Below are positions 905 to 27,935 of a DNA stretch of 33,835 nucleotides, piece by piece. Numbering within the stretch: position 1 is the stretch's first letter; each line of letters starts with the position of its first letter. The translations under genes and the position numbers were made by a program. This DNA is from Gammaproteobacteria bacterium (GTDB lineage: Bacteria; Pseudomonadota; Gammaproteobacteria; GCA-001735895). Location of the stretch: the NCBI GenBank assembly GCA_024232855.1, contig JAAEPH010000028.1:1-33835 (forward strand), in the 5' to 3' direction. Under the pieces are notes generated by a model. That model saw nothing but the letters and a program-made list of their open reading frames with translations. It ran no database searches and had not been told where the DNA came from.

Positions 905-1753
905 ATGGGAATCGCAAGCGACTATCTACAATTAATGCAAACCATCGGCGCGAAACTGCAGATTCCGCCGGTACGGGAAATCTGCATCGCGCCATTTGAA
1001 GCGGATCCTGTAAAAAGCAGCAAGTTTGGCGCCCTGGTGTTGGCGGATGGCACGGTCGGTCTCACCTATACCGGGCTCGATGACGACTTGCAGGTGTTGC
1101 AGGACCGATGTAAATACGAATCCCTGGTCAATGAGTCACCTGTTCAGATAGCGAGTCTGTATATCAGGGAAGAGAGCTGGAACAAGGTTCTCGGTATGGC
1201 CGCGATTAATGCGATAAGCCAGTACCTGTTCAATCGGGGCGGTTACTCGATACCGACGGGCGGTAAAACGGTGACACACCTGGAGCTCGGTAAAGGAGAT
1301 CACGTCGGAATGGTGGGTTTTTTCCCACCCCTGGTGGAACAGGTGCGCGCATTGGGGCTGCCTTTAACGGTTATCGAACTGGATGAGCAGTGGCTGCAGA
1401 GCGATGACCGGTTCGAAGTCACGATGGAGCCGGAAAAACTAAATGCTTGCAGCAAGATTATCTGTACCGGCACCGTGCTCGTAAACCAGACTATCGACGA
1501 TTTATTGCCCCACTTCAAGAATGCCAGCCAGATATTTATCGTCGGCCCTACCGTGGGCTGCCTGCCCGACCCCCTGTTTGATCGGGGAATTACCCAGCTC
1601 GGCGGCTGCACCGTGCTGGATAGCGCACAATTCATCCGTTTATGGGCGGCTCAGGAAAAATGGCGCGACTCCGCCAGGCGTTATGTGCTGAGTCGTGATT
1701 CGGCTTACCCGGGCTGCGCGCAGCTGCTGAAAAACGCAAGCTTAGTAAAATAG
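905..1753 (+). CDS. DUF364 / putative heavy-metal chelation domain protein
   Basis: Protein of about 282 residues. The frame is also open from a GTG at 851, but ATG 905 gives the more natural N-terminus (MGIASDYLQLMQ). The C-terminal half reads as a Rossmann-like DUF364 domain: a GMVGFFPPLVEQVR segment near residue 140, ICTGTVLVNQTIDDLL near 200, and IVGPTVGCLPDPLFDRGITQLGG near 230. The N-terminal half fits the DUF4213 domain that usually accompanies it. Family members are described as putative heavy-metal chelation or cofactor-related proteins; the reaction is unproven. It stands alone between the ALDH gene and an ALDH fragment. The assignment rests on motif recognition without a search, so the domain call is moderately firm and the role unknown. 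Confidence 0.65.
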   Translation: MGIASDYLQLMQTIGAKLQIPPVREICIAPFEADPVKSSKFGALVLADGTVGLTYTGLDDDLQVLQDRCKYESLVNESPVQIASLYIREESWNKVLGMAAINAISQYLFNRGGYSIPTGGKTVTHLELGKGDHVGMVGFFPPLVEQVRALGLPLTVIELDEQWLQSDDRFEVTMEPEKLNACSKIICTGTVLVNQTIDDLLPHFKNASQIFIVGPTVGCLPDPLFDRGITQLGGCTVLDSAQFIRLWAAQEKWRDSARRYVLSRDSAYPGCAQLLKNASLVK

Positions 1754-1776
1754 GGGACAGACTGTACCCCCCCCCG

Positions 1777-2000
1777 TTCGGCGACGTCACCGCGGACATT
1801 CGCATCAACCGCGAAGAGATCTTCGGCCCGGTGCTGTCGGTACTCAAGTTCAAAACCGCAGAGCAGGCGATCGAAATCGCCAATGGCACCGATTACGGCC
1901 TGGCCGCGGTGATTTTCACCGATAACCTGTCGACCGCGATCTGGTGCTCCGAGCGTCTCGACGCCGGCCAGGCGCACGTCAACAAATGGGATGTCGGCGG
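1777..2000 (+). pseudogene. Aldehyde dehydrogenase fragment (internal piece, no start or proper end)
   Basis: This stretch matches bases 340-563 of the ALDH gene at the window start, ungapped, with 14 differences in 224 bases (about 94% identity). Several differences are third-position and synonymous, so it probably derives from a diverged paralogue that evolved as coding sequence and not from a fresh copy. It encodes the EEIFGPVLSVLKFKTAEQA segment but lacks the catalytic cysteine region and the C-terminal block. On the left it abuts a run of nine Cs (1767-1775) directly after the DUF364 gene; on the right it ends at a 131-bp inverted-repeat element. It is a gene remnant and cannot make a working enzyme. 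Confidence 0.9.
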
Positions 2001-2130
2001 GTACTGTCAAGTTAACTGATTTGAGGGCGTACTAAAAGCAGGCTGGTAGTTCTAAGTCATTGATTTCTCGTTGTGGAGAAGGGATACTTGGCCTCATAAA
2101 GTGCATGATTTACGTTAACTTGACAGTACC
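2000..2130. mobile_element. 131-bp element with 17-bp perfect terminal inverted repeats (MITE-like or IS remnant)
   Basis: GGTACTGTCAAGTTAAC at 2000-2016 is repeated exactly in inverted orientation at 2114-2130. The 97 bp between them hold no convincing reading frame. Ends beginning GG and carrying CTGT resemble terminal repeats of some insertion-sequence families such as IS6; this is recalled, not searched. No target-site duplication is visible. The element joins two unrelated truncated genes, an ALDH piece on the left and a Crp/Fnr tail on the right, as expected if deletion or recombination between element copies removed what lay between. Confidence 0.7.
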
Positions 2131-2132
2131 TC

Positions 2133-2360
2133 ATACTGATCTTCTACGAGCGTTTTGGTTACCAGGACGAAGAAGGAAATTCCATCGTCGAGCTCCCCGT
2201 AAAAAGAGGTGAGCTGGCCGAACTCGTCGGCGTTCGTCCCGAATCGATTTCGCGCCTGATCGATCAGCTGCAAAGCGACAAAATAATGCGTTTCAAAGAC
2301 CGCAGGGTTCAGTTCTCGGATGTCGACGAAGTCCTGCAGCAGGCCGGGGTAACGGGTTAG
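2133..2360 (+). pseudogene. Crp/Fnr-family regulator, C-terminal DNA-binding fragment
   Basis: The frame running to the TAG at 2358-2360 encodes about 75 residues with a Crp-type winged helix-turn-helix: an ELPVKRGELAELVGVRP segment, then recognition-helix residues PESISRLIDQLQ, then RVQFSDVDEVLQQAG. There is no start codon with a ribosome site, and the cyclic-nucleotide-binding-like sensory domain is absent; the left edge is the 131-bp inverted-repeat element. The recognition helix (ESISR) differs from that of the intact FNR in this window (ETVSR), so it comes from a different family member. It is a decayed remnant, unless expressed as a fusion from upstream, for which there is no sign. Confidence 0.8.
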
Positions 2361-2372
2361 CCCCGCACTGTA

Positions 2373-2561
2373 TCAGGATAGCCTGGCATGGATCTGGTTA
2401 TCGGTCTCTACAACGTAGTCTCGCGGCGCTTCCAGCACCACCTCCCGCACTTGCGTCGAACGCCCACTGCGTGGATCGCTGCTCTCGATGCGTTTCCATA
2501 CCGAATGCCAGAAATTGCCGCCCAGGGCGCCAAATAACTCGCTGTTGTCGTGTCTGGCCAT
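2373..2561 (-). CDS. Small hypothetical protein (62 aa)
   Basis: A 62-codon frame with a plausible ribosome-binding site (AGGA about 8 bases before the ATG). The product is hydrophilic and charged, with no signal peptide, membrane segment or recognisable motif; it contains GALGGNFWHSVWKRIES near its N-terminus. It converges on the Crp/Fnr fragment and is separated from the divergently placed Sel1 gene by about 175 bp. I do not recognise the family. The good ribosome site and the lack of a competing gene support its being real, but a frame this short in GC-rich DNA could also be chance. Confidence 0.45.
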   Translation of the reverse strand: MARHDNSELFGALGGNFWHSVWKRIESSDPRSGRSTQVREVVLEAPRDYVVETDNQIHARLS

Positions 2562-2736
2562 TTATTGATCCTGAACCCTAATTATTGTCGTAATCGTATC
2601 AGGCGTGAGCGGGCGGCGAATCACCCGTATGGGGTAAACGCGATCTTGTGTTAAATCGGTCACACAGTTGAGAGATCCGATTCGCTATCATCGATGCCTG
2701 GTTTTACATATTTAGGGAGTGAAGGGAGCTGCAATA

Positions 2737-3099
2737 ATGGTGGTTTACGCTGAGGAACGAAGCTGTATTACCCAGTTCGAACTGGGCGAGTTGTTCCACA
2801 AGGGAGACCCCAAATCACGGGATTTTGACGAAGCCTTCAAGTGGTACAAGACGGCCGCCGAAAAAGGATCACGCCAGGCACAGCATCGCCTCGGTATGAT
2901 GTACGCACGCGGGCAAGGCGTGACACAGAACTACCCGCGTTCTTATGCCTGGTGCAAGGTTGCCGCCTTCCAGCACTCCAGGCGCGCCAAACGCAAACTC
3001 AAATGCATCGAATCGAAGATGAGCTGGGAGCAGATTCGACGCGGCAACTGGCTGGCGCAGGATTTCTATGATCGCTTCGTAGCGCCGTACAGCCGCTAG
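2737..3099 (+). CDS. Sel1-repeat (TPR-like) protein, short
   Basis: Protein of about 120 residues with Sel1-like helical repeats: DFDEAFKWYKTAAEKGSRQAQ followed by the strongly conserved LGMMYARGQGV and a third helix NYPRSYAWCKVAAFQ. Sel1 repeats form alpha-alpha solenoids that mediate protein-protein contacts; with about two repeats this is a minimal member. ATG 2737 is preferred because GGGAG lies 8-12 bases upstream; a GTG at 2719 in the same frame has no good site. There is no obvious signal peptide, so a cytoplasmic location is likely. It stands alone, followed on the opposite strand by a CubicO-type remnant. Domain type is confident; binding partner unknown. Confidence 0.8.
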   Translation: MVVYAEERSCITQFELGELFHKGDPKSRDFDEAFKWYKTAAEKGSRQAQHRLGMMYARGQGVTQNYPRSYAWCKVAAFQHSRRAKRKLKCIESKMSWEQIRRGNWLAQDFYDRFVAPYSR

Positions 3100-3111
3100 C
3101 CCGCTAGCCCT

Positions 3112-3243
3112 CCCCTGCAGCACCTGTTCCGACACAGGCTTGAGGCCGGCGCCATAGTTGCCGGTAAAATGGTCACGCCCAGGTCTTTCTCGGGAATCAC
3201 AAAAAACCTCTGTCCACCGTAGCCAGCCCCGGCAATCGCGTCG
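3112..3243 (-). pseudogene. CubicO/beta-lactamase-family serine hydrolase, frameshifted C-terminal remnant
   Basis: On the minus strand, one frame encodes AGYGGQRFFVIPEKDLGVT and the next frame continues FTGNYGAGLKPVSEQVLQ. Joined, they reproduce the usual C-terminal signature of the family (GxGGQxxFVIPExDLVVxxTxGNYG). The frame changes near base 3170, and everything N-terminal, including the SxxK and YxN motifs, is missing. About 70-190 bases further upstream on the same strand a signal-peptide-like stretch (LLLMACLGSAQA, near 3370-3405) occurs in another frame; it may be the decayed head of the same gene, implying a large internal deletion. Too damaged to be functional. Confidence 0.72.
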
Positions 3244-3489
3244 TCTCGCGCAGCCCGCTTGCTGCACCGGGCATATCTCTACACGCGCACCAGATACCGG
3301 TGCTGTGCAAAGGTTTGGTCAACGCAAATCACGGGATCGCGTGGTTCACTGGAATTGGTTACACTGGCCTGCGCGCTGCCCAAACAGGCCATCAACAGCA
3401 ATACCCGGGGAAAGGTGACCAAGGGGGCGCATTGACAAAAAAATCCTGATTCCCGACAGCCGGCAAACCGATTCCAGCAAGAGATAATC
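3244..3489. other. Non-coding, probably decayed DNA upstream of the sulfatase fragment
   Basis: I see no intact gene here. The minus strand contains a hydrophobic signal-peptide-like stretch near 3370-3405, in a frame that stops at about 3280, consistent with the head of the CubicO-type remnant after deletion. No RNA gene, terminator or FNR-type box was found. Confidence 0.4.
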
Positions 3490-3828
3490 ATGAAAAGCAG
3501 CCAACCCAATGTACTCGTTATCCAGGCAGATCAGCTCGCCGCGAAATACCTCGGCGCCTACGGCAACGCGATCGCGGGCACCCCACACATCGATTCGCTG
3601 GCCGATAACGGCGCCGTTTTCGAGAGCGCCTATACCAATTTTCCGTTATGTGCACCGTCGCGCTTTTCGATGATGTCGGGGCAGCTGGCATCGACCATCG
3701 AAGCCTTCGACAACGGCGCCGAATTCACCTCGTCGATCCCTACCTTCGCGCATTGCCTGCGCGCGGACAAGGTCTATTCAAAGTGGGCCTACCAGGGCAT
3801 CGTCGACTACCGTTTTCCGGAGGAGTGA
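3490..3828 (+). pseudogene. Choline-sulfatase-like N-terminal fragment fused to an unrelated tail
   Basis: The first ~93 residues are a sulfatase N-terminus: PNVLVIQADQLAAKYLGAYGN with the metal-binding Asp, TPHIDSLADNGAVFESAYTNFPLC, and the sulfatase signature CAPSR whose Cys becomes formylglycine. The pattern is closest to choline sulfatases, which run to about 500 residues. After LRAD (near base 3768) the sequence leaves the family and continues with KVYSKWAYQGIVDYRFPEE to a stop at 3826-3828. The stop overlaps a strong Shine-Dalgarno for the amidase downstream, so this tail is probably the end of the gene that originally preceded the amidase. An intragenic deletion joined the two. No sulfatase activity is expected. 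Confidence 0.82.
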
Positions 3829-3830
3829 AA

Positions 3831-5180
3831 ATGCCAGGCCTGCGAGAACTTTCCGCGGCGCTGCGCGGCGGCCGGACCACGGCGACCCAACTGGTCGAAC
3901 AGGCGCTTGAACGTGCACGCCAGTCAAAATCGGTGTTCACCGCCATCAACCCGGGACTGGTCAGCCTGGCTTACTCGATCGACCGGGCGCGTAAAAAATC
4001 GCAGATACTGGCACCACTCACCGGGATCCCGATCGCACTCAAGGATTTATTCAACATCCGCAATGAAAAAACCTTCGCCGGCTCAACCGTGCGCAAACAC
4101 TACGCGCAACCCGAAGATGCCGATGCCGAGGTCGTCGCGCCGCTGCGCGCCGCCGGCCTGCTCTTCTTCGGGCGCACCAACATGAGCGAATTCGCATTCT
4201 CGGGGATAGGCAGGAACCCGCACTATGGCACACCGTTGTCGATCTGGGATCGAGATACCGGGTGCCTGCCCGGTGGATCATCGTCCGGCAGCGCGGTCGC
4301 CGTCGCGGAAGGCATAGTCGCCGCCACGCTCGGTTCCGATACGGCGGGCTCATGCCGCATCCCCGCCGCTTTCAATGGCGTGGTCGGGGTCAAACCGAGT
4401 TTCGGGCGCATGTCGCTGAACGGGATTTTCCCACTCTCACCCACGCTCGATGCGCCCGGCCCCATCGCGGTCGACGTCGACAGTTGCTTCATTCTCGATC
4501 AGCTTATGAGCGGCGGCATTTCGCCGGAGGCGGAATTGCCACATCTATATGCGGCCGAACTCGATCAGGTCAAACTGGTCGTTCCGCGGGCGCGCGTGAT
4601 GGAAGACCTCGATGCCGAGGTGAAAACGGCATTCGAGCGATCGCTTGATGAAATAGCGGCCGCCGGGGCCCTGATAGTCGAAGCAGACTTGCCGATTCTC
4701 GATCGCTGCGATGATTTTTTTATCGAACGCCCGGTGGTGGTGCGCGAAGTCTGGTTGCACCACCGGCAAATGCTGGAGCAGCACCTCGACGAATACGATC
4801 CCTTTGTCGGCCAGCGCATGAGCGCGGGCGCCGACATCAGCGACGAGGAACAGCAAGCCCGTTATCGCGAACGGGCGCAACTGGTCAGCGACTTCACGCA
4901 GGATTATGCCGGCCTGCAGACCGATGCCCTGCTCTACCCGACGGTCGCCTGCGTACCGCCGGCGATTTCCGAGACCGAGGACGCCAACGACGCGCGTCGC
5001 GTCAACCTGCGCTGCCTGCGCAACACCGCGACGGTCAACTACTTCGACGGTTGTTCGATGAGCCTGCCCTGTCATGCCCGAGGCGAGGTGCCGGTCGGAC
5101 TGATGCTGTCATCGGCCAACGGTAACGACGAGCAACTGTATCGCATCGCAGCCGCCATCGAATCCACGCTACTCACTTAG
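3831..5180 (+). CDS. Amidase signature family enzyme
   Basis: Full-length amidase of about 449 residues. ATG 3831 follows GGAGGAG (3819-3825) at ideal spacing; a longer upstream frame is not used. The Ser-cisSer-Lys triad is present: Lys in GIPIALKDLF (about residue 71), the cis-Ser in PGGSSSGSA (about 150) and the nucleophile in GSDTAGSCRIPAA (about 174). The family hydrolyses C-N bonds of amides, including aryl and aliphatic amides, ureas and, in GatA, glutamine; the substrate here is not evident. There is no GatB or GatC nearby, so it is unlikely to be the tRNA amidotransferase subunit. It probably had an upstream operon partner, now reduced to a 19-residue tail fused to a sulfatase fragment. 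A second, truncated amidase occurs near 22.3-23.2 kb. Confidence 0.93.
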   Translation: MPGLRELSAALRGGRTTATQLVEQALERARQSKSVFTAINPGLVSLAYSIDRARKKSQILAPLTGIPIALKDLFNIRNEKTFAGSTVRKHYAQPEDADAEVVAPLRAAGLLFFGRTNMSEFAFSGIGRNPHYGTPLSIWDRDTGCLPGGSSSGSAVAVAEGIVAATLGSDTAGSCRIPAAFNGVVGVKPSFGRMSLNGIFPLSPTLDAPGPIAVDVDSCFILDQLMSGGISPEAELPHLYAAELDQVKLVVPRARVMEDLDAEVKTAFERSLDEIAAAGALIVEADLPILDRCDDFFIERPVVVREVWLHHRQMLEQHLDEYDPFVGQRMSAGADISDEEQQARYRERAQLVSDFTQDYAGLQTDALLYPTVACVPPAISETEDANDARRVNLRCLRNTATVNYFDGCSMSLPCHARGEVPVGLMLSSANGNDEQLYRIAAAIESTLLT

Positions 5181-5264
5181 TCGGGATCACGTCCATTTAT
5201 CAACATCCTTGCTCTACTTCTCACTGATCACCGCTTCAGTTGCGACCAGTTCGCTCTTTTCAAG

Positions 5265-5278
5265 TTGATCCAAATCAA
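5265..5278 (+). promoter_or_regulatory. FNR/ANR box upstream of hemN
   Basis: TTGATCCAAATCAA is a perfect match to the FNR consensus TTGAT-N4-ATCAA. Its centre (5271.5) predicts, for a class II activated promoter at -41.5, a transcript start near 5313. A weak -10-like TAATCT lies at 5300-5305, and the leader would be about 22 nt to the hemN ATG. The regulator itself is encoded in this window (16.3-17.1 kb). Confidence 0.88.
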
Positions 5279-5334
5279 TGTATATTCAGCCCAGCGCAGT
5301 AATCTAGGCGCATTAATCAGCCGCAGCAGTTTTA

Positions 5335-6726
5335 ATGTCCAAACCATCTCTTTTTCAGGAAGACCTGATCAACCGTTACGATAGACCGGGTCCTCGTTAC
5401 ACGTCCTATCCACCCGCTACCGAGTTCCACGACGGTATTACCGAAATCGACTATCGCGACTGGGCAAGGCAAAGCAACGAGGAACCGATACCGAAACCCC
5501 TGTCGCTTTACTTCCACATCCCCTTCTGCAGTACGATTTGCTACTACTGCGCCTGCAACAAGGTCGTCACCAAGCGAAAAGAGCGCGCCGAACCCTATCT
5601 GCTGGATCTATACCGCGAAATCGAAATTCAGGCCAGCCTCTTCGATACGGATCGCGAAGTACGGCAGTTACACTGGGGCGGAGGTACACCCGGATTCCTG
5701 TCGCACGACCAGTCGCAGCAATTGATGGAAAAAATCAAGCAGCACTTCTCGCTGAAAAGCGGGGTCGGTAACGAATATTCTATCGAGCTCGATCCGCGGG
5801 TCATCGAAAAAGGCGGTATCGCGCACCTGCGTCGCCTGGGATTCAATCGAATCAGCATCGGCGTGCAGGACCTCGACGAAAGGGTTCAAAAAGCTATCAA
5901 CCGGATTCAAAGCCTGGAGGTCACGCGGGCGATAATCGATGAGGCGCGGCACCATACCTTTCGTTCGATCAATATCGATTTAATTTACGGCCTGCCCCAT
6001 CAAACCCCGCAGAGCTTCTCGACAACCCTGGATCGTATCATCAAACTGGCGCCGGATCGCATCGCCATGTACAACTACGCGCACCTCCCTCACCGCTTTC
6101 CTCCGCAACGGCGTATCCGGCTGGAGGACTTGCCCGGCTCGAATGAAAAGCTCGATATTCTGCACGGCACTATCGACAAGCTCTCGGCCGCGGGCTACGA
6201 GTACATCGGCATGGATCATTTTGCGAGACCGAATGATGAACTTGCGGTCGCCCAACGCGAAGGCAGCCTGCACCGTAACTTCCAGGGTTATGCGGCGCAC
6301 GCACAGTGCGACTCGATCGGCTTTGGCGTTTCCGCGATCAGCCAGGTCAGCGATAACTTCAGCCAGAATACGACCAGTCTCGATGATTACCACGAAAGCA
6401 TCGAACAATCGCGCCTGCCGATAATCCGCGGCTACCGTAGCTCGCAGGAAGATCTGCTGCGCCGCGAGATCATTCAGCACCTGGTCTGTCACTTCAGGCT
6501 CGATACCGGGGAGATCGCGAAAAACTGGGGGATCAATTTCAAGCAGCACTTTACCTGGGAGCTGGCCGGTCTCGCCGGTATGGAAAAAGACGGCCTGTTA
6601 GAACGGGGTAACGATGAAATTACCGTTCTCAGGCCCGGCCGCCTGCTGGTGCGTAATATCTGCATGATCTTCGATCGCTACCAACAACAACCCAACAGCA
6701 AGGGATCATTTTCAAGAACGATTTGA
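5335..6726 (+). CDS. hemN: Oxygen-independent coproporphyrinogen III oxidase
   Basis: 463 residues, the usual length for HemN. This radical-SAM enzyme converts coproporphyrinogen III to protoporphyrinogen IX without oxygen. The cluster motif CSTICYYCAC (CX3CX2C plus the HemN-typical fourth Cys) lies near residue 66; HWGGGTPGFLS, GVQDLDERVQKAINR and IDLIYGLPHQT follow in the usual order. Heme synthesis under low oxygen supports the cbb3 oxidase genes that follow, and a perfect FNR box precedes the gene. The ATG at 5335 gives the normal MSKPSLFQEDLINRYDRPGPRYTSYP start, though no strong Shine-Dalgarno is seen. The gene ends about 100 bp before a hairpin terminator that it probably shares with a predicted small RNA. 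Confidence 0.97.
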   Translation: MSKPSLFQEDLINRYDRPGPRYTSYPPATEFHDGITEIDYRDWARQSNEEPIPKPLSLYFHIPFCSTICYYCACNKVVTKRKERAEPYLLDLYREIEIQASLFDTDREVRQLHWGGGTPGFLSHDQSQQLMEKIKQHFSLKSGVGNEYSIELDPRVIEKGGIAHLRRLGFNRISIGVQDLDERVQKAINRIQSLEVTRAIIDEARHHTFRSINIDLIYGLPHQTPQSFSTTLDRIIKLAPDRIAMYNYAHLPHRFPPQRRIRLEDLPGSNEKLDILHGTIDKLSAAGYEYIGMDHFARPNDELAVAQREGSLHRNFQGYAAHAQCDSIGFGVSAISQVSDNFSQNTTSLDDYHESIEQSRLPIIRGYRSSQEDLLRREIIQHLVCHFRLDTGEIAKNWGINFKQHFTWELAGLAGMEKDGLLERGNDEITVLRPGRLLVRNICMIFDRYQQQPNSKGSFSRTI

Positions 6727-21180: not shown

Positions 21181-22179
21181 TCAGCTACGGATGTTGTCGG
21201 CAATCAGGCTCAGAATCTCGAACATCACCGCGGCCGCGAAATGCGCGGTTTGCTTGTTCGGTGAATCCTTGGTCGGCATCAGGCAAACGACATCGCCACC
21301 GATGATATTCTTGCCGCGCACGCAACGAATCAATTCCATCGCTTCATCGACCTGGAAGCCCTGGATACCGCATTCGAGATTGGAGACACCCGGACATACG
21401 GTCGCATCCATGCAATCGAGGTCAAAGGTGATATAGAGTGGCGTATCACCGATACGATCGTTGATCAATTCCATCGTCGCCCGTGGGCCGAGTTCACGGT
21501 AACGCTTGATCGGTATCACTTCGTAACCCAGGTCCGAACTGGTCTTCCACCAGTCGAGCGTGCGCGGATTGCCGCGCATGCCAATCTGTATGCTGTGGGA
21601 AGAATCGATCAAACCCGAACGCACCAGGTAAGCCGCCCAGTGCGCCGCCGATTTCTTTGCGCCGAGAAAATGCGGAATTTGTTCAAAGGCATCGGTGTGC
21701 GCATCGAAATGCAGGAATGCAGCCTTTTTACCCCCGCTGAGCCTGGCGCCCTCACCCGCTATCGCCTGGACAATTCCGCCGGTGATGGCATGATCGCCAC
21801 CGATCGACACGGGTCTTGCGCCGGCCTTGTCGATGGCGCGATAAAACTCGGTCATGCGCTCGATACAGCGCTCGTTGTCATTCGCCTCGGGCAGGGGCAC
21901 ATCGCCCATGTCGCCGATGCGGCAGGCATTCCACGGGTCGAGCTGAAACTCGGTGTGCACCCGGTGCGCCAGCGCCGAGATATCACGCACCGCGCGCGGA
22001 CCCAGGTGCTGATCGCGTTCGGTGGTGCCGTTACCGGTCGAATGCGGCACCCCGACCAGTGCGATATCGAGATTACCCGGGTCGCGTTCGATCGGGCACC
22101 TGAATAGAGATGGAATATCCCACCAATACAGGCTTTCCATCATCATTTTGTCGTCGTTGGATAAATCGCCAGTCATCAT
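21181..22179 (-). CDS. Arginase/agmatinase-family ureohydrolase
   Basis: About 332 residues. The binuclear manganese site is complete: VSIGGDHAIT, AAFLHFDAHTDAF and YITFDLDCMDATVCPG. The family hydrolyses guanidino compounds such as agmatine, arginine or guanidinobutyrate to urea and an amine; the N-terminal part and length resemble agmatinases, but substrate is not fixed by these motifs. Two ATGs (22179 and 22176) follow GAGG on the minus strand; the second has the better spacing. The gene is divergent from an amidase pseudogene and close to a LysW-type operon for arginine- or lysine-like synthesis, so a link with guanidino or polyamine metabolism is plausible. Confidence 0.9.
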   Translation of the reverse strand: MMTGDLSNDDKMMMESLYWWDIPSLFRCPIERDPGNLDIALVGVPHSTGNGTTERDQHLGPRAVRDISALAHRVHTEFQLDPWNACRIGDMGDVPLPEANDNERCIERMTEFYRAIDKAGARPVSIGGDHAITGGIVQAIAGEGARLSGGKKAAFLHFDAHTDAFEQIPHFLGAKKSAAHWAAYLVRSGLIDSSHSIQIGMRGNPRTLDWWKTSSDLGYEVIPIKRYRELGPRATMELINDRIGDTPLYITFDLDCMDATVCPGVSNLECGIQGFQVDEAMELIRCVRGKNIIGGDVVCLMPTKDSPNKQTAHFAAAVMFEILSLIADNIRS

Positions 22180-22261
22180 CAAACCTCGTTTTAACAGGCG
22201 CGCTTACCGAGAAACCGGGCATCGTTTATCTCGCCTGTGCCAATTGGGAATACGCCGATAA

Positions 22262-23195
22262 TAGCGTAAACTCGCGCCTCACCGGCGGCTCCAGTAGCGG
22301 TTCGGCGGCGGCGCTCGGCTTTGGTCTTTGCGCCGCGGCGCTTGGAACGGACACCGGCGGTTCGGTACGGGCGCCGGCCGCATTGTGCGGCCTGGTCGGT
22401 TTCAAGCCGACCCTCGGACGCGTCAGCACCACCGGCGTCATCCCCTTTTCCTGGACGCTCGATCATGTCGGCACGCTGACCCGTAGCGCGGGCGATGCCG
22501 CGACCGTCTTCAATTCATTGCTGCCTGGCCAACCGAAGGTCGCCGCGGTGAACCTTGAGAACCTGGTCATCGGCATCCCGCAAAGTTTCTTCTTCGAGCG
22601 CTGCGACGGCGAAATTCTCGACGGCGTCGATACCCTGATGTGTTTCCTGCGCGAAGCGGGCGCCAGCCTCAAGCCGGTAGCCATGCCGTCGATGCAATAC
22701 ACGCGCACGGTATCGCTCGCCGTACAAATGCCCGAGGCCCTGTCGTTTCACAATCGTTATCTAGAGCAACGCGGCCACCTCTACAGCCAGGATTTTCGAG
22801 CCGGGCTGGCGCTGGGGCAGTGCCTGCTCGCCGAGCAATACATTCGCTCCCGGCGCTTTATCGAAACCTATCGGCGCGATATCGACGCCGTGTTTACCGA
22901 GGTCGATGCCATCCTGACACCGGCGACCCCGGTGATCGCGCCAAAAATAGGGGCAGTCGAGGTCAGCGTCGACGGCATCTCCGAGCCCGCCGGCAACGCC
23001 ATTACCCGCTATACCTCGTTTTTCAACATGACCGGGCACCCGGCAATTACGCTGCCCTGCGGCATGCACAGCGAGGGCTTGCCGTTTGCCGCGCAACTGG
23101 TCGGCAAACACCACGACGACGAGCAACTACTCGAGCTCGCCAGGCGCATCGAATCGGACTTCGGCTTCGAGTTACCGCTGCCTGACCCGGGTTGA
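22262..23195 (+). pseudogene. Amidase signature family, N-terminally truncated
   Basis: The recognisable amidase begins abruptly near LTGGSSSGSAAALG and continues through GTDTGGSVRAPAALCGLVGFK, FSWTLDHVGTLTRS and ILTPATPVIAPK to a normal C-terminus (about 310 residues of the usual 450-500). The catalytic Lys (GxPxxxKD) region and the N-terminal third are missing, so it cannot form the Ser-cisSer-Lys triad. The frame stays open upstream to about 22110, but that part overlaps the start of the divergent ureohydrolase and does not look like amidase. The remaining frame has no internal stops, which suggests a recent truncation. It differs clearly from the intact amidase at 3.8-5.2 kb. Confidence 0.8.
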
Positions 23196-23316: not shown

Positions 23317-23481
23317 ATGGGCGAATGTCCGATTTGTGCGGCTGAAGTAGAAGTGGCCAACGATGCAATTGCGGGTGAGTTACTGGTGTGCGACGACTGC
23401 GGCGCCGAACTCGAGTTAAAGTGTGTCGATCCGGTTGACCTGGCCGAAGCGCCGGCCGCCGAAGAGGACTGGGGCCAGTGA
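23317..23481 (+). CDS. lysW: LysW-type amino-group carrier protein with C-terminal Gln
   Basis: 54 residues, exactly the length of Thermus LysW. It has two zinc-binding pairs, CPIC (4-7) and CDDC (25-28), the CGAELELK segment, an acidic stretch, and the LysW-type end EEDWG. In known LysW/AmCP proteins residue 54 is Glu; its gamma-carboxyl is joined to the amino group of aminoadipate or glutamate, which then stays attached during conversion to lysine or ornithine. Here codon 54 is CAG (Gln), followed by TGA. The ATG at 23317 has GAGG about 9 bases upstream. The lysX GTG overlaps the stop. The carrier call is firm from length, motifs and operon; the Gln end is unusual and affects how it is charged. 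Confidence 0.92.
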
Positions 23482-24329
23482 ATGTTGGCTCGTTAAAGAT
23501 CGGCCTGCTGCATTCGCTGATCCGTAAGGAAGAGAAGCTGCTGATCGAGGCGTTTCGCAAAGCAGGTGTCGAGCCGATCATGATCGACGATCGCAAGTTG
23601 ATCATGGATTTTCATTCGGCTCCCGGCATCGACATCCTGGTCGAGCGTTCGATCAACCATTCGCGCGCGCTACACGCGCTCAGACTTTTCGAAAGTGCCG
23701 GCGTGCACTGCGTCAACTCACACAAGGTATCGCAAATCTGTGGCGACAAACTACTCACCACCGCCGCGCTCAAGGACAACGGCATCGCGCAACCGAAATG
23801 CCGGGTCGCCTTCACCGAGGAATCCGCGCTCGAGGCGATCGAGGAACTCGGCTACCCGGTGGTGCTGAAACCGGCAGTCGGATCCTGGGGCCGCCTGCTG
23901 TCCAAGATCAATGATCGCGATTCCGCTGAAACCGTGCTCGAACACAAAACCGTTCTAGGTAGCTATCACCACTCGATTTTCTACATCCAGCAATACGTCG
24001 AAAAGAAGGGGCGCGATATCCGCAGTTTCGTGGTCGGCGACGACTGTATTGCCGCCATTTACCGCAGCTCAGACCACTGGATCACCAACACGGCGCGCGG
24101 CGCAACGGCGAGCAAATGCGATGTGACGCCCGAGGTCGCCGAAATATCGCTGGCCGCGGCGAAAGCGGTCGGCGGCGGTATCGTCGCGGTCGACCTGTTT
24201 GAAAGCGATGACGGCCTGCTGGTCAACGAGGTCAACTACACCATGGAATTTCGCAACAGCATCGATACCACCGGCATCGACATTCCCCAGGTCGTCGCCA
24301 ACTACGTAATTGGTCTCGTCAAACAATGA
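23478..24329 (+). CDS. lysX: LysX/ArgX-type ATP-grasp ligase (charges LysW)
   Basis: 283 residues in the RimK-like ATP-grasp group. The GTG start overlaps the lysW stop. Visible features are [19 protein letters not shown] (nucleotide-binding Lys and loop), the [20 protein letters not shown] segment, WITNTARGA, and the metal-binding [12 protein letters not shown] near the C-terminus typical of LysX. The enzyme activates the terminal carboxylate of LysW with ATP and ligates the alpha-amino group of an amino acid, probably glutamate or aminoadipate. No aminoadipate-pathway genes are seen nearby, which slightly favours glutamate and hence ornithine/arginine; this is inference. Confidence 0.93.
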
Positions 24330-25348
24330 TCAAGGTTTCCATAGTCGGCGCCTCGGGCTATACCGGCGGCGATTTGCTGCGCATTCTGCTGCTCCACCCA
24401 CAGGTCGAGATCCATCAGGTCACGTCGGAACGTCACGCCGGCAAAGCGGTTGCCAGCGTACATCCCAACCTGCGAAAAATCTGCAAGCACAAGTTTGTTT
24501 CGGCGGCCGAGCTCGGGCCCTGCGACGTACTCTTTCTCGGCCTCCCGCATGGCCATATGATGAACCGCCTGGCCGAATTCGAGGCCCTCGCCGATACCCT
24601 GATCGATTTGTCCGCCGATTTTCGCTTGCGCGACAACAACGCCTATGAAACCTGGTACGGGAAATCACACGCCTGTCCCGAAAAACTCGACGGTTTCGTT
24701 TACGGCATCGCGGAATTGCACCGTGAGCAGCTGAAGAATGCAAAGCGTATCTCGGGCGCCGGCTGCAACGCCACCGCGACCATCCTCGCCCTGCACCCGC
24801 TTTACCAGGCCGGGGTGGTCGAGTCCGCCGTGGTCGAGGTCAAGGCCGGTTCGAGCCAGGGCGGCAACGCCGTCAGCGAAGGCAGCCACCACCCGGAACG
24901 CAGCGGCGCGGTACGCTCCTATAAACCGACCGCGCATCGCCACCTCGCGGAAATTCAGCAGGAGCTCGGCACCGACAGGGTTCATTTCTCGGCAACCTCG
25001 ATCGAAATGGTGCGCGGCATTCTCGCCACCTGCCACGTTTTCCTGAACAAGGACCTCGAGGAAAAAGACATCTGGAAGCTGTATCGCGCCGCCTACGGAA
25101 ACGAGCCTTTTATCCGCATCGTCAAAGAACGCAGCGGTATCCATCGCTATCCCGAACCGAAAATACTCGCCGGCAGCAACTTCTGCGACATCGGCTTCGA
25201 ACGCGACCCGCACAGCAACCGCCTGGTCGTTATCAGCGCGCTCGACAACCTCATGAAAGGCGCCGCCGGCCAGGCGGTGCAGGCATTCAACATCGCGCGT
25301 GGTTTCGACGAAACCTCCGGCCTCGAGTTTCCGGGCCTGCACCCCTGA
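24326..25348 (+). CDS. lysY: LysY/ArgC: [LysW]-aminoadipyl/glutamyl phosphate reductase
   Basis: 340 residues. The NADP-binding N-terminus is [17 protein letters not shown]; the catalytic Cys is in [18 protein letters not shown] near residue 148; [32 protein letters not shown] is typical of the LysY/ArgC type found with LysW. The enzyme reduces the acyl phosphate made by LysZ to the semialdehyde while the substrate remains on the carrier. The ATG overlaps the lysX stop (ATGA). Classical ArgC acting on N-acetylglutamyl phosphate is the alternative, but the operon with lysW and lysX makes the carrier-bound reaction more likely. Confidence 0.92.
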
Positions 25349-25360
25349 TCCACAACCCCC

Positions 25361-25996
25361 ATGTGCCGCATACTCTACGCCAGCGCCGCCACCGTGTTTT
25401 CGATCGCGGAAATGCTCGCGCCATTCGCCGAGCTGTCGCGCGATAGCCGTGAATTCCAGGGCCACGGCTGGGGTTGCGCCTGGCGCGAAGGTGAAAGCTG
25501 GAGGCAATACCACGATATCCGCCCCATCTGGGAAGACGATCTGGAACAGTTCGGCAGCAGTAGATTACTGCTGGCACACGCACGCAGCGCATTTCGCGAC
25601 GAGGGCATCTTCGTCGAAAACAACATGCCATTCTCCGATGGCGAATCCATGTTTATCTTCAACGGCGAACTGCGCGGCGTGCGCATCCAGTCGGAAGGCC
25701 GCATCGGCGCCGAAAAAATATACAACTACATCCGGCGCTTCGACAAGGGCGACAAGCTCGCGGCCACCGCCAGGGCGGTCGACATCATCGGCAAACGCAG
25801 CAGCTATGTGCGCGCGATGAACATCGTTCTTTCCGATGGCGGGCAAAGCTGCCTATCCACCACGTATAGCGAAGACCCGGATTACTTCCAGATGCATCAA
25901 AAGCGTGAGGACGACTTGCATCTGGTATGCTCACAACCTTTCGCCGGCGACCGGGGCTGGTCGCGGATCGATAACCACACGACCATAGAACTATGA
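25361..25996 (+). CDS. Class II glutamine amidotransferase-fold (Ntn) amidohydrolase in the lysW operon
   Basis: 211 residues, consisting of the Ntn glutaminase domain only. Met is followed by Cys2 (MCRILYAS), the expected nucleophile after Met removal. Other active-site elements are FQGHGWG, the Arg of LLAHARSAF, and the oxyanion NG in MFIFNGELRG. The Asp that holds the free alpha-amino group of glutamine in GlmS and PurF (SDTE block) appears replaced (GRIGAEKIY), which would suit a substrate whose amino group is in a peptide bond. Comparable stand-alone enzymes such as EgtC cleave gamma-glutamyl amides. With no synthetase domain or partner, likely roles are deamidating the carrier's C-terminal Gln or releasing product from its gamma-glutamyl linkage; both are inference. 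It lies between lysY and lysZ. Confidence 0.85.
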   Translation: MCRILYASAATVFSIAEMLAPFAELSRDSREFQGHGWGCAWREGESWRQYHDIRPIWEDDLEQFGSSRLLLAHARSAFRDEGIFVENNMPFSDGESMFIFNGELRGVRIQSEGRIGAEKIYNYIRRFDKGDKLAATARAVDIIGKRSSYVRAMNIVLSDGGQSCLSTTYSEDPDYFQMHQKREDDLHLVCSQPFAGDRGWSRIDNHTTIEL

Positions 25997-26784
25997 TGCT
26001 GATAAAAATCGGCGGCGGCGAGCAGATCAACCTCGACGCCACCATCGCCGACCTGGCGACACTGGAACAACCGTTTATCATCGTGCACGGCGCCAACGTG
26101 CTGCGCGATCAGCTGGCGCAGCGACTGGGCATGGAGAAAACGATCCTGACCTCGGTGTCGGGGTATAGCAGCGTCTTTTCCGATCAGGACGCAATCGACG
26201 TTATCATGATGAGCTACTCCGGGCTGCGCAACAAGCAGATCGTCGAGCGCTGCCAGCGCAACGGCATCAATGCCGTGGGACTCAGCGGACTCGACGGCCG
26301 CCTGGTACAGGGCGAACGCAACAAGGGCATCCGCGTGCGCGAAAACGGCAAAACCCTGATCAAGCGCGACCTTTCCGGAAAACCCCGTTCGATCAATACC
26401 GCCCTGCTGTCACTGCTGCTGGAAAACGGCTACTGCCCGGTGTTGACGATTCCCATCGTCGACGAGAACGGCTTCGCGATCAACTCCGAAAACGATGATA
26501 TCTTGGCGAAAATCGCCAACGCCCTCGACATCGACTGCGTCATCCAGCTGATCGAGGCCCCCGGCTTTCTCGACGATCCCGCCGACGAATCCTCGCTGGT
26601 CGCGGAAATGACCGTGGCCGAGCTGCACCGCCGCGAAGCCAGTGTCGAGGGGCGCATCAAACGCAAACTGCTGGCGCTGACACGGCTCTGCCAGGACGGC
26701 AAAACACGCGTCATCATCACCGACGGCCGCGGCGAACAACCCATCATCAAAGCGCTCGCCGGCGCAGGGACCCATATATCATGA
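25993..26784 (+). CDS. lysZ: LysZ/ArgB-type amino-acid kinase ([LysW]-aminoadipate/glutamate kinase)
   Basis: 263 residues of the amino-acid kinase family. It begins MLIKIGGGEQIN (phosphate-binding Lys and Gly-rich loop), then FIIVHGANVLRDQ, GLSGLDGRLVQGERNKGIRV, and a C-terminal ATP-site segment including GRIKRKLLALTRL. These are typical of LysZ-like kinases, which phosphorylate the side-chain carboxylate of the carrier-bound amino acid. The first ATG (25993) overlaps the stop of the preceding gene; the second, 25996, is equally possible. Classical N-acetylglutamate kinase is the alternative, but RDQ in place of the usual GG-pocket sequence and the operon favour the LysW form. Confidence 0.92.
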   Translation: MMLIKIGGGEQINLDATIADLATLEQPFIIVHGANVLRDQLAQRLGMEKTILTSVSGYSSVFSDQDAIDVIMMSYSGLRNKQIVERCQRNGINAVGLSGLDGRLVQGERNKGIRVRENGKTLIKRDLSGKPRSINTALLSLLLENGYCPVLTIPIVDENGFAINSENDDILAKIANALDIDCVIQLIEAPGFLDDPADESSLVAEMTVAELHRREASVEGRIKRKLLALTRLCQDGKTRVIITDGRGEQPIIKALAGAGTHIS

Positions 26785-27935
26785 CTGACTACAAAGCACT
26801 CGAACTCGATTACGGCCTGCCGTTACAGCCGAAGCGCGATCTCGTTGCGGTACGCGGCGAAGGCGCCTGCCTGTACGATGAGGCCGGCCGCGAATATATC
26901 GATTTCGCCGCCGGCATCGGCGTCGCCTCGCTGGGCCACTGCCATCCGCAACTGGTGGCGGCGATCCAGCAGCAGGCCGAGACCCTGATCACCTGCCCCA
27001 ATATCATGTACAACGATATTCGTTCGCGACTCCTCGAAAAGCTGGTAGAGATCAGCCCGCAAGGCCTGACCCGCGCCTACCTGTGCAATTCAGGCGCCGA
27101 ATCGATCGAAGCCGCGCTCAAGTTTGCACGCCTGCACAGCGGGCGCACCAACTTCGTTACCGCGATGCGCGGCTTCCACGGGCGCACCATGGGTGCGGTC
27201 AGCGCCACCTACACACCGAAGTATCGCGAGGCCTTCCAGCCGCTGATCCCCGGATTCGATTACGTCCCCTACAACAAGATCGACAAGCTTGACGCCGTGG
27301 TGAACGACAACACCGCGGCGGTAATGCTCGAGCTGGTACAGGGCGAAGGCGGCGTCAATCCGATCCAGGCCGAGTACATAGCGGCGGTACGCAAAATTTG
27401 CAGCGAGCGCGGCGTATTGCTGATCATCGACGAAATCCAGACCGGCTTTTGCCGCACTGGTAGATTTTTTGCCTGCGAACATTTCGAACTGCAACCCGAC
27501 ATTCTCTGCGTGGCCAAGGCCATGGGCGGCGGGGTGCCCATCGGCGCGACCCTGCTGGACACGGCAATCAACGTAGACCCCGGCCTGCACGGCACCACCT
27601 TCGGCGGTAACCCGCTGGCCAGCGCCGCGGCGCTGGCCGCGATCGATGTCTACCAGACCGATAACCTGGCCCAGCGCGCGGCCGAACTCGGCGACTATTT
27701 CGAAACCCGTCTAAACGTGTCGGAGCTGTCACAGGTGCGCGCGCTGCGCCGCCTCGGGCTGATGATTGGAATTGAGCTCAAGCAGAAAGTACAGGACAAG
27801 CTGGCGCAACTGCTGGAGCGGGGAATCATCGCGCTGCCCGCGGGACCGAACGTGATTCGCATGTTGCCGCCGCTGATTGTCGAAAGGCAGCAAATCGATC
27901 GAGTGGTGGATACCTTACGCGAAATCCTCGCCTGA
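26781..27935 (+). CDS. lysJ: LysJ/ArgD-type aminotransferase (class III, PLP)
   Basis: 384 residues. Class III aminotransferase motifs are present: [64 protein letters not shown] and the PLP lysine in [17 protein letters not shown]. It would transfer an amino group from glutamate to the carrier-bound semialdehyde, giving LysW-bound lysine or ornithine. The ATG overlaps the lysZ stop (ATGA), and it is the last gene of the operon; no LysK-type carboxypeptidase to release the product follows. Length is normal. ArgD acting on free N-acetylornithine is the alternative. Confidence 0.93.

Follow-up and report, generated by a model that had tools for sequence, protein, structure and literature searches.

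The window, that is, the whole 33,835-nucleotide stretch analysed here (contig JAAEPH010000028.1 of the gammaproteobacterial assembly GCA_024232855.1), carries a forward-strand operon of six packed genes in the order lysW-lysX-lysY(argC)-GATase-lysZ-lysJ, most of which are joined by overlaps of a few bases. The first gene (23317..23481) encodes a LysW-like amino-group carrier of 54 residues with two CxxC knuckles, recognized by both the lysW model TIGR01206 (57.3 bits, cut-off 53.2) and PF21344 (56.7 bits, cut-off 27). It is followed by a LysX-like ATP-grasp ligase, the type that loads the amino-acid substrate onto LysW (23478..24329; TIGR02144, 340.9 bits, cut-off 275.6), and by a LysY/ArgC-type [LysW]-acyl-phosphate reductase (24326..25348; TIGR01850, 398 bits, cut-off 233.6). 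Downstream of the GATase gene lie a LysZ-like [LysW]-aminoadipate kinase (25993..26784; NF010659, 254.4 bits, cut-off 223) and a LysJ/ArgD-type aminotransferase (26781..27935; TIGR00707, 453.9 bits, cut-off 410). The window operon contains no lysK, and none of its genes matches the LysK model NF003367.

The fourth gene (25361..25996, forward strand) opens with an ATG start and encodes a 211-residue protein beginning MCR, an Ntn enzyme of the class II glutamine amidotransferase (GATase) fold. It is a real gene, with a GC3 of 0.74 like that of its neighbors, both ends packed tightly against the adjacent genes, and 63–83% identity to counterparts in other genomes. The protein falls below the gathering scores of Pfam GATase_6 (16.9 bits, cut-off 27) and GATase_4 (15.4 bits, cut-off 23), and its best EgtC model score, against TIGR03442, is 48 bits with a cut-off of 218.65; two other members of the GATase clade reach 40–43 bits with this model and likewise remain below the cut-off. 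No synthetase domain is present in the protein.

The first-pass annotation of the window had noted that the nucleophilic cysteine, the arginine pocket, and the Asn-Gly oxyanion hole of this protein are kept, and all three are invariant in an alignment of 103 GATase homologues: Cys2, directly after the initiator Met (codon 25364..25366), Arg75 of the HARS block, expected to hold the alpha-carboxylate (25583..25585), and Asn101-Gly102 (25661..25666). Arg3, His73, and the stretch Asn87-Asn88-Met-Pro-Phe are also invariant. Directly before the oxyanion hole, Phe100 (25658-25660) replaces the His of the usual HNG motif, giving FNG in 103/103 homologues. The annotation had further claimed that GRIGAEK (residues 113-119; 25697..25717) stands where an Asp-containing block would be expected. 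This block is kept across the homologues, and Gly116, at the canonical Asp position, occurs in every one of the 102 sequences in which that column is present. For comparison, 16 relatives of the ordinary class II GATase type were taken from gammaproteobacterial genomes; in these the block reads G-x-T-D-S-E with an invariant Asp, one of them ending TDTE and one CDSE. Profile–profile alignment places GRIGAEK on GNTDSE (99.7% probability, E 1e-25), matching Gly116 to the Asp and Glu118 to a Glu also found in ordinary members. By this alignment, the protein lacks the Asp of the GlmS Asp123 position, which binds free glutamine by its alpha-amino group, and has Gly116 there instead; no acidic residue, which would have counted against the annotation, was found at that position. 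With Gly116 universal in the clade and the Asp invariant in the ordinary relatives, loss of the Asp is fixed in the whole clade and is not due to chance.

The AlphaFold model of the protein has a mean pLDDT of 94.4, and its nearest solved structure is EgtC (PDB 4zfj, 4zfk, 4zfl; Z 26, rmsd 1.7 over 198 residues, ~22% identity), followed by matches to GlmS (Z 22) and PurF (Z 20) that place it in the class II GATase (Ntn) fold. In a pocket of the GlmS type, an Arg holds the alpha-carboxylate of the substrate and an Asp holds its alpha-amine. Retention of the Arg together with loss of the Asp would therefore fit a C-terminal residue, which has a free carboxylate and a nitrogen engaged in a peptide bond, such as the last residue of LysW. 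The class II GATase domains of GlmS and PurF share the fold, the Cys nucleophile, the Arg, and the Asn-Gly with the window protein, but differ from it in carrying a synthetase domain, the Asp, and the HNG motif.

The carrier encoded in the window ends in AEEDWGQ, and its last codon, CAG for Gln (23476-23478), overlaps the GTG start codon of lysX. In the pathway as known, the substrate is joined through its amino group to the gamma-carboxyl of the C-terminal Glu of an EDWGE motif, and in a haloarchaeal carrier this last Glu is essential, the E54A substitution leading to auxotrophy (PMC10433800). The C-terminus of the window LysW is EDWGQ, not EDWGE, and, judging from the chemistry, a Gln-ended LysW would need to be deamidated before LysX can load it.

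The amidase gene at 22110-23195 lacks the first ~145 residues of its intact 453-residue homologues (L040, L042), and a dioxygenase-like gene that lies between the amidase and agmatinase-like genes in L040 is missing from the window. A deletion seems to have brought its two flanks together, and the amidase gene at 22110-23195 is probably either broken or a misassembly. At 3490-5180, a 510-residue amidase ORF, in which the first ~80 residues are not amidase sequence, is overlapped in another frame by the beginning of a sulfatase gene (112 residues, PF00884); this region has the look of either a junction or the remnant of a gene. In the close relatives L040, L042, and L044, agmatinase-like, dioxygenase-like (PhyH type by eye), and amidase genes lie upstream of lysW (about 1700-6200), and their products might act on the compound released from the carrier.

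The LysW operon is rare in its class. Among 369 gammaproteobacterial genomes, the GATase clade and LysW occur in the identical four genomes and in no others, all other GATase matches being distant YafJ/EgtC-like proteins. A wider scan of genome contigs found 190 relatives, of which 80 were kept; they come from Gammaproteobacteria, Ignavibacteria and other Bacteroidota, KSB1, Calditrichota, Gemmatimonadota, Planctomycetota, and one Woesearchaeota bin. All 80 loci carry lysX, lysY, lysZ, or lysJ within 6 kb of the GATase gene (60 of them carry all four), and no M20 gene lies within that distance in any of them. At three loci (L067, L070, L080), a Gln-ended lysW, lysX, lysY, and the GATase gene are present, with lysZ and lysJ not nearby, which counts against the function proposed below. 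No relatives of this GATase were found on plasmids. A search of the literature available without subscription found no paper joining LysW with a glutamine amidotransferase, and a prior description may exist.

In Thermus and Deinococcus, the product is released from LysW by LysK, a zinc-dependent M20 hydrolase. Judged by its translations, locus L102 encodes enzymes for almost every step between 2-oxoglutarate and lysine, in the order lysW, homocitrate synthase-like, aconitase-like large and small subunits, isocitrate dehydrogenase-like, lysX, lysY, GATase, lysZ, and lysJ, with no LysK; on a Deinococcus plasmid, a corresponding set of genes is accompanied by an annotated [LysW]-lysine hydrolase, and the GATase is absent. 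In 40 genomes containing the GATase, LysK (NF003367) was found above its curated cut-off in none, the named controls being positive; this speaks against a LysK hidden elsewhere in the genomes searched, although most of them are metagenome bins, so the absence may partly reflect incompleteness. One genome (G401) had no M20 match at all, and four others (G400, G391, G387, G396) had none above 30 bits, so no LysK-, ArgE-, or DapE-like enzyme is evident in these five; G387 also had no lysA match. The exclusion recurs within Gemmatimonadota, where L191, L195, and L231 have LysK and no GATase and the reverse holds for the other complete operons. No operon or genome examined was found to contain both. 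For Caldithrix abyssi, the lysine locus as published comprises only LysWXZYJ and Hcs, the remaining homologues being dispersed across the genome (PMC5317091).

The last residue of the carrier varies between these systems. Among the 79 GATase operons with a visible carrier, the window included, Glu is the last residue of 53 carriers and Gln that of 26, with no other residue occurring. On the GATase tree, the Gln/Glu end changes 10 times by parsimony, with at least six of the changes forced by well-supported branches. All 11 distinct LysK-type carriers (L139, L141, L142, L143, L191, L195, L206, L208, L210, L231, L242) are Glu-ended, as are the four carriers aligned in PMC10433800. Within one Gemmatimonadota order, the LysK operons L191, L195, and L231 have Glu ends and the GATase operons L194, L199, and L205 have Gln ends. 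The comparison, a small one of 10 LysK-type with 79 GATase carriers, gives a Fisher p of 0.025, which becomes 0.019 when the class I systems described below are added; both values are uncorrected for descent. An association of Gln ends with the GATase and of Glu ends with LysK is suggestive only. With Glu already at the end of most carriers in GATase operons, the general job of the enzyme cannot be deamidation but can be product release; Gln ends would then be tolerated, since this enzyme could open the Gln amide too.

From the active-site residues, the fold, the place in the operon, the exclusion of LysK, and the carrier ends, we infer both the substrate and two reactions for the 25361..25996 product, which we propose to be a [LysW]-gamma-glutamyl hydrolase. 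We consider it likely that this GATase is a dedicated enzyme of LysW that stands in for LysK and also matures Gln-ended carriers; its main job is probably product release, deamidation being a second activity of the same thiol enzyme. Cys2 would attack the gamma-carbonyl of the last residue of LysW to form a gamma-glutamyl thioester, while Arg75 would hold the free alpha-carboxylate of that residue, the missing Asp being needless with the nitrogen in a peptide bond. If the finished diamino acid departs through its alpha-amino group, it would be freed as the product and LysW-Glu regenerated, which is the step performed by LysK elsewhere. If ammonia departs instead, a Gln-ended carrier would become the Glu-ended form that LysX can load. 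In either case, hydrolysis of the thioester would yield LysW-Glu. Because its carrier ends in Gln, the window organism would need both activities. The suggestion of the first-pass annotation that the substrate is a Gln or gamma-glutamyl residue at the end of a peptide is supported, as far as genomic comparison can tell, by the pocket, by LysW-gene neighborhoods in 80/80 loci, by the exclusion of LysK, and by the switching of the carrier end between Gln and Glu.

Several other assignments were weighed against this one. If the GATase only deamidated Gln-ended LysW, the product would be released by an unlinked ArgE- or DapE-like M20 enzyme. The Gln end of the window LysW, which should not be loadable by a carboxylate-dependent ATP-grasp ligase, speaks for such a maturase, and the window genome does encode ArgE-like and DapE-like enzymes of the M20 type, for which LysW adducts might be substrates, a point that we count against our own proposal. 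Yet the GATase is retained with the 53 carriers that already end in Glu, and, besides the lack of LysK above cut-off in all 40 genomes, five of these have no M20 match above 30 bits to take over release. Maturation as the main role was rejected on the Glu-ended majority, and we regard the maturase reading as a whole as unlikely. The converse, in which the GATase merely takes the place of LysK and deamidation of the Gln end is spontaneous or the work of some other enzyme, appears equally improbable. It fits every Glu-ended operon and the comparison of L102 with the Deinococcus operon, but leaves unaddressed why Gln ends arise repeatedly in the GATase clade and are unseen with LysK; moreover, a Cys-dependent Ntn enzyme that opens a gamma-glutamyl amide is expected to open a Gln amide as well, and no other amidase is constant in the GATase operons.

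A repair or proofreading enzyme that clears LysW mischarged with ammonia or a wrong amino acid would account for the presence of the GATase with both Gln- and Glu-ended carriers. Release would then fall to an unrecognized enzyme, but no release enzyme is left in otherwise complete operons such as L102 or in the genomes without M20 matches, making this role very unlikely. Least credible, and in our judgment highly improbable, is a conventional amidotransferase that hydrolyses free glutamine and passes the ammonia to an operon partner. Cys2, Arg75, the Asn-Gly pair, and the class II fold itself are those of such enzymes; however, the residue that should hold the alpha-amine of free glutamine is Gly in all homologues with that column, the synthetase domain is absent, and the amination step of the pathway is already served by LysJ. 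The first-pass annotation had likewise judged ammonia transfer to a partner less likely on the missing synthetase domain, and our analysis concurs. Release in place of LysK, with maturation of Gln-ended carriers as a second activity, thus remains the assignment that we prefer.

As for the compound made by the operon in the window organism, lysine is a first guess. In an alignment with a Deinococcus LysX, the window LysX keeps the GSWGR motif and the AAA-type 10-residue stretch, a motif resembling the aminoadipate type. The genome also encodes lysA (512 bits), argB (250 bits), dapE, and argE. Arginine as the obvious product is weakened by the dedicated argB and argE, and synthesis of lysine through the LysW route alone is weakened by lysA. 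Homocitrate synthase was not found above cut-off in the window genome, and is present in the Ignavibacteria loci and in L102.

The proposed enzyme can be set beside several known systems. With LysK of Thermus, Deinococcus, Sulfolobus, and haloarchaea, it would share the reaction and the place in the pathway, lysW, lysX, lysY, lysZ, and lysJ being common to both; LysK, however, is an M20 zinc hydrolase unrelated to the Cys-dependent Ntn fold. EgtC of ergothioneine biosynthesis shares with the window GATase a Cys2 Ntn fold without a synthetase domain, and it cleaves a gamma-glutamyl amide, as the window GATase is proposed to do. Its substrate is a small molecule with a free glutamyl alpha-amine; unlike EgtC, the window GATase has Gly in place of the amine-holding Asp and is encoded in a LysW operon. 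In species with Gln-ended Pup, Dop both deamidates this end to Glu and removes the tag from isopeptide bonds (PMC8599861). The same logic, with one enzyme for both steps, is proposed here for the GATase and LysW, although Dop, a relative of glutamine synthetase, works with ATP/phosphate whereas the GATase is a thiol Ntn enzyme, and Pup tags proteins whereas LysW bears an amino-acid intermediate.

A further parallel comes from LysW clusters on plasmids of Streptomyces (L244:10722-11285, L245:10725-11288, L246:10751-11314) and Rhodococcus (L247:14700-15272), which encode a class I GATase/peptidase C26 protein (PF00117, 75.9 bits) unrelated to the window GATase. No M20 hydrolase is in view in these four clusters, and three of their four carriers end in RDWGQ, the Rhodococcus one ending in RDWGE; several Streptomyces plasmids nearly identical to L244 were left out of this count. 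The clusters look like a second, unrelated replacement of LysK, and they repeat the link between a thiol gamma-glutamyl hydrolase and a Gln-ended carrier with different proteins. We lean somewhat towards the view that a thiol amidase of the amidotransferase kind has independently replaced LysK twice, once from class II Ntn enzymes and once from class I/C26 proteins, and that the carrier may be encoded in amidated form and activated by its own release enzyme, in a maturation cycle like that of Pup and Dop.

If the function proposed for the window GATase is true, a GATase family that lies below the Pfam and NCBIfam cut-offs would gain a function, and the last step of LysW-type lysine or ornithine synthesis would be filled in Ignavibacteria, Gemmatimonadota, Calditrichota, and some Gammaproteobacteria, which have LysWXYZJ without a linked LysK. 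The pocket suggests a readable rule, in which a kept Arg and a lost Asp indicate a C-terminal peptidyl Gln or Glu as the substrate. Processing of the released product by the agmatinase-like, dioxygenase-like, and amidase enzymes encoded beside the operon in the close relatives could explain why organisms that already make lysine and arginine maintain an extra LysW pathway, and Gln-ended LysW would be the amino-acid-carrier counterpart of Gln-ended Pup.
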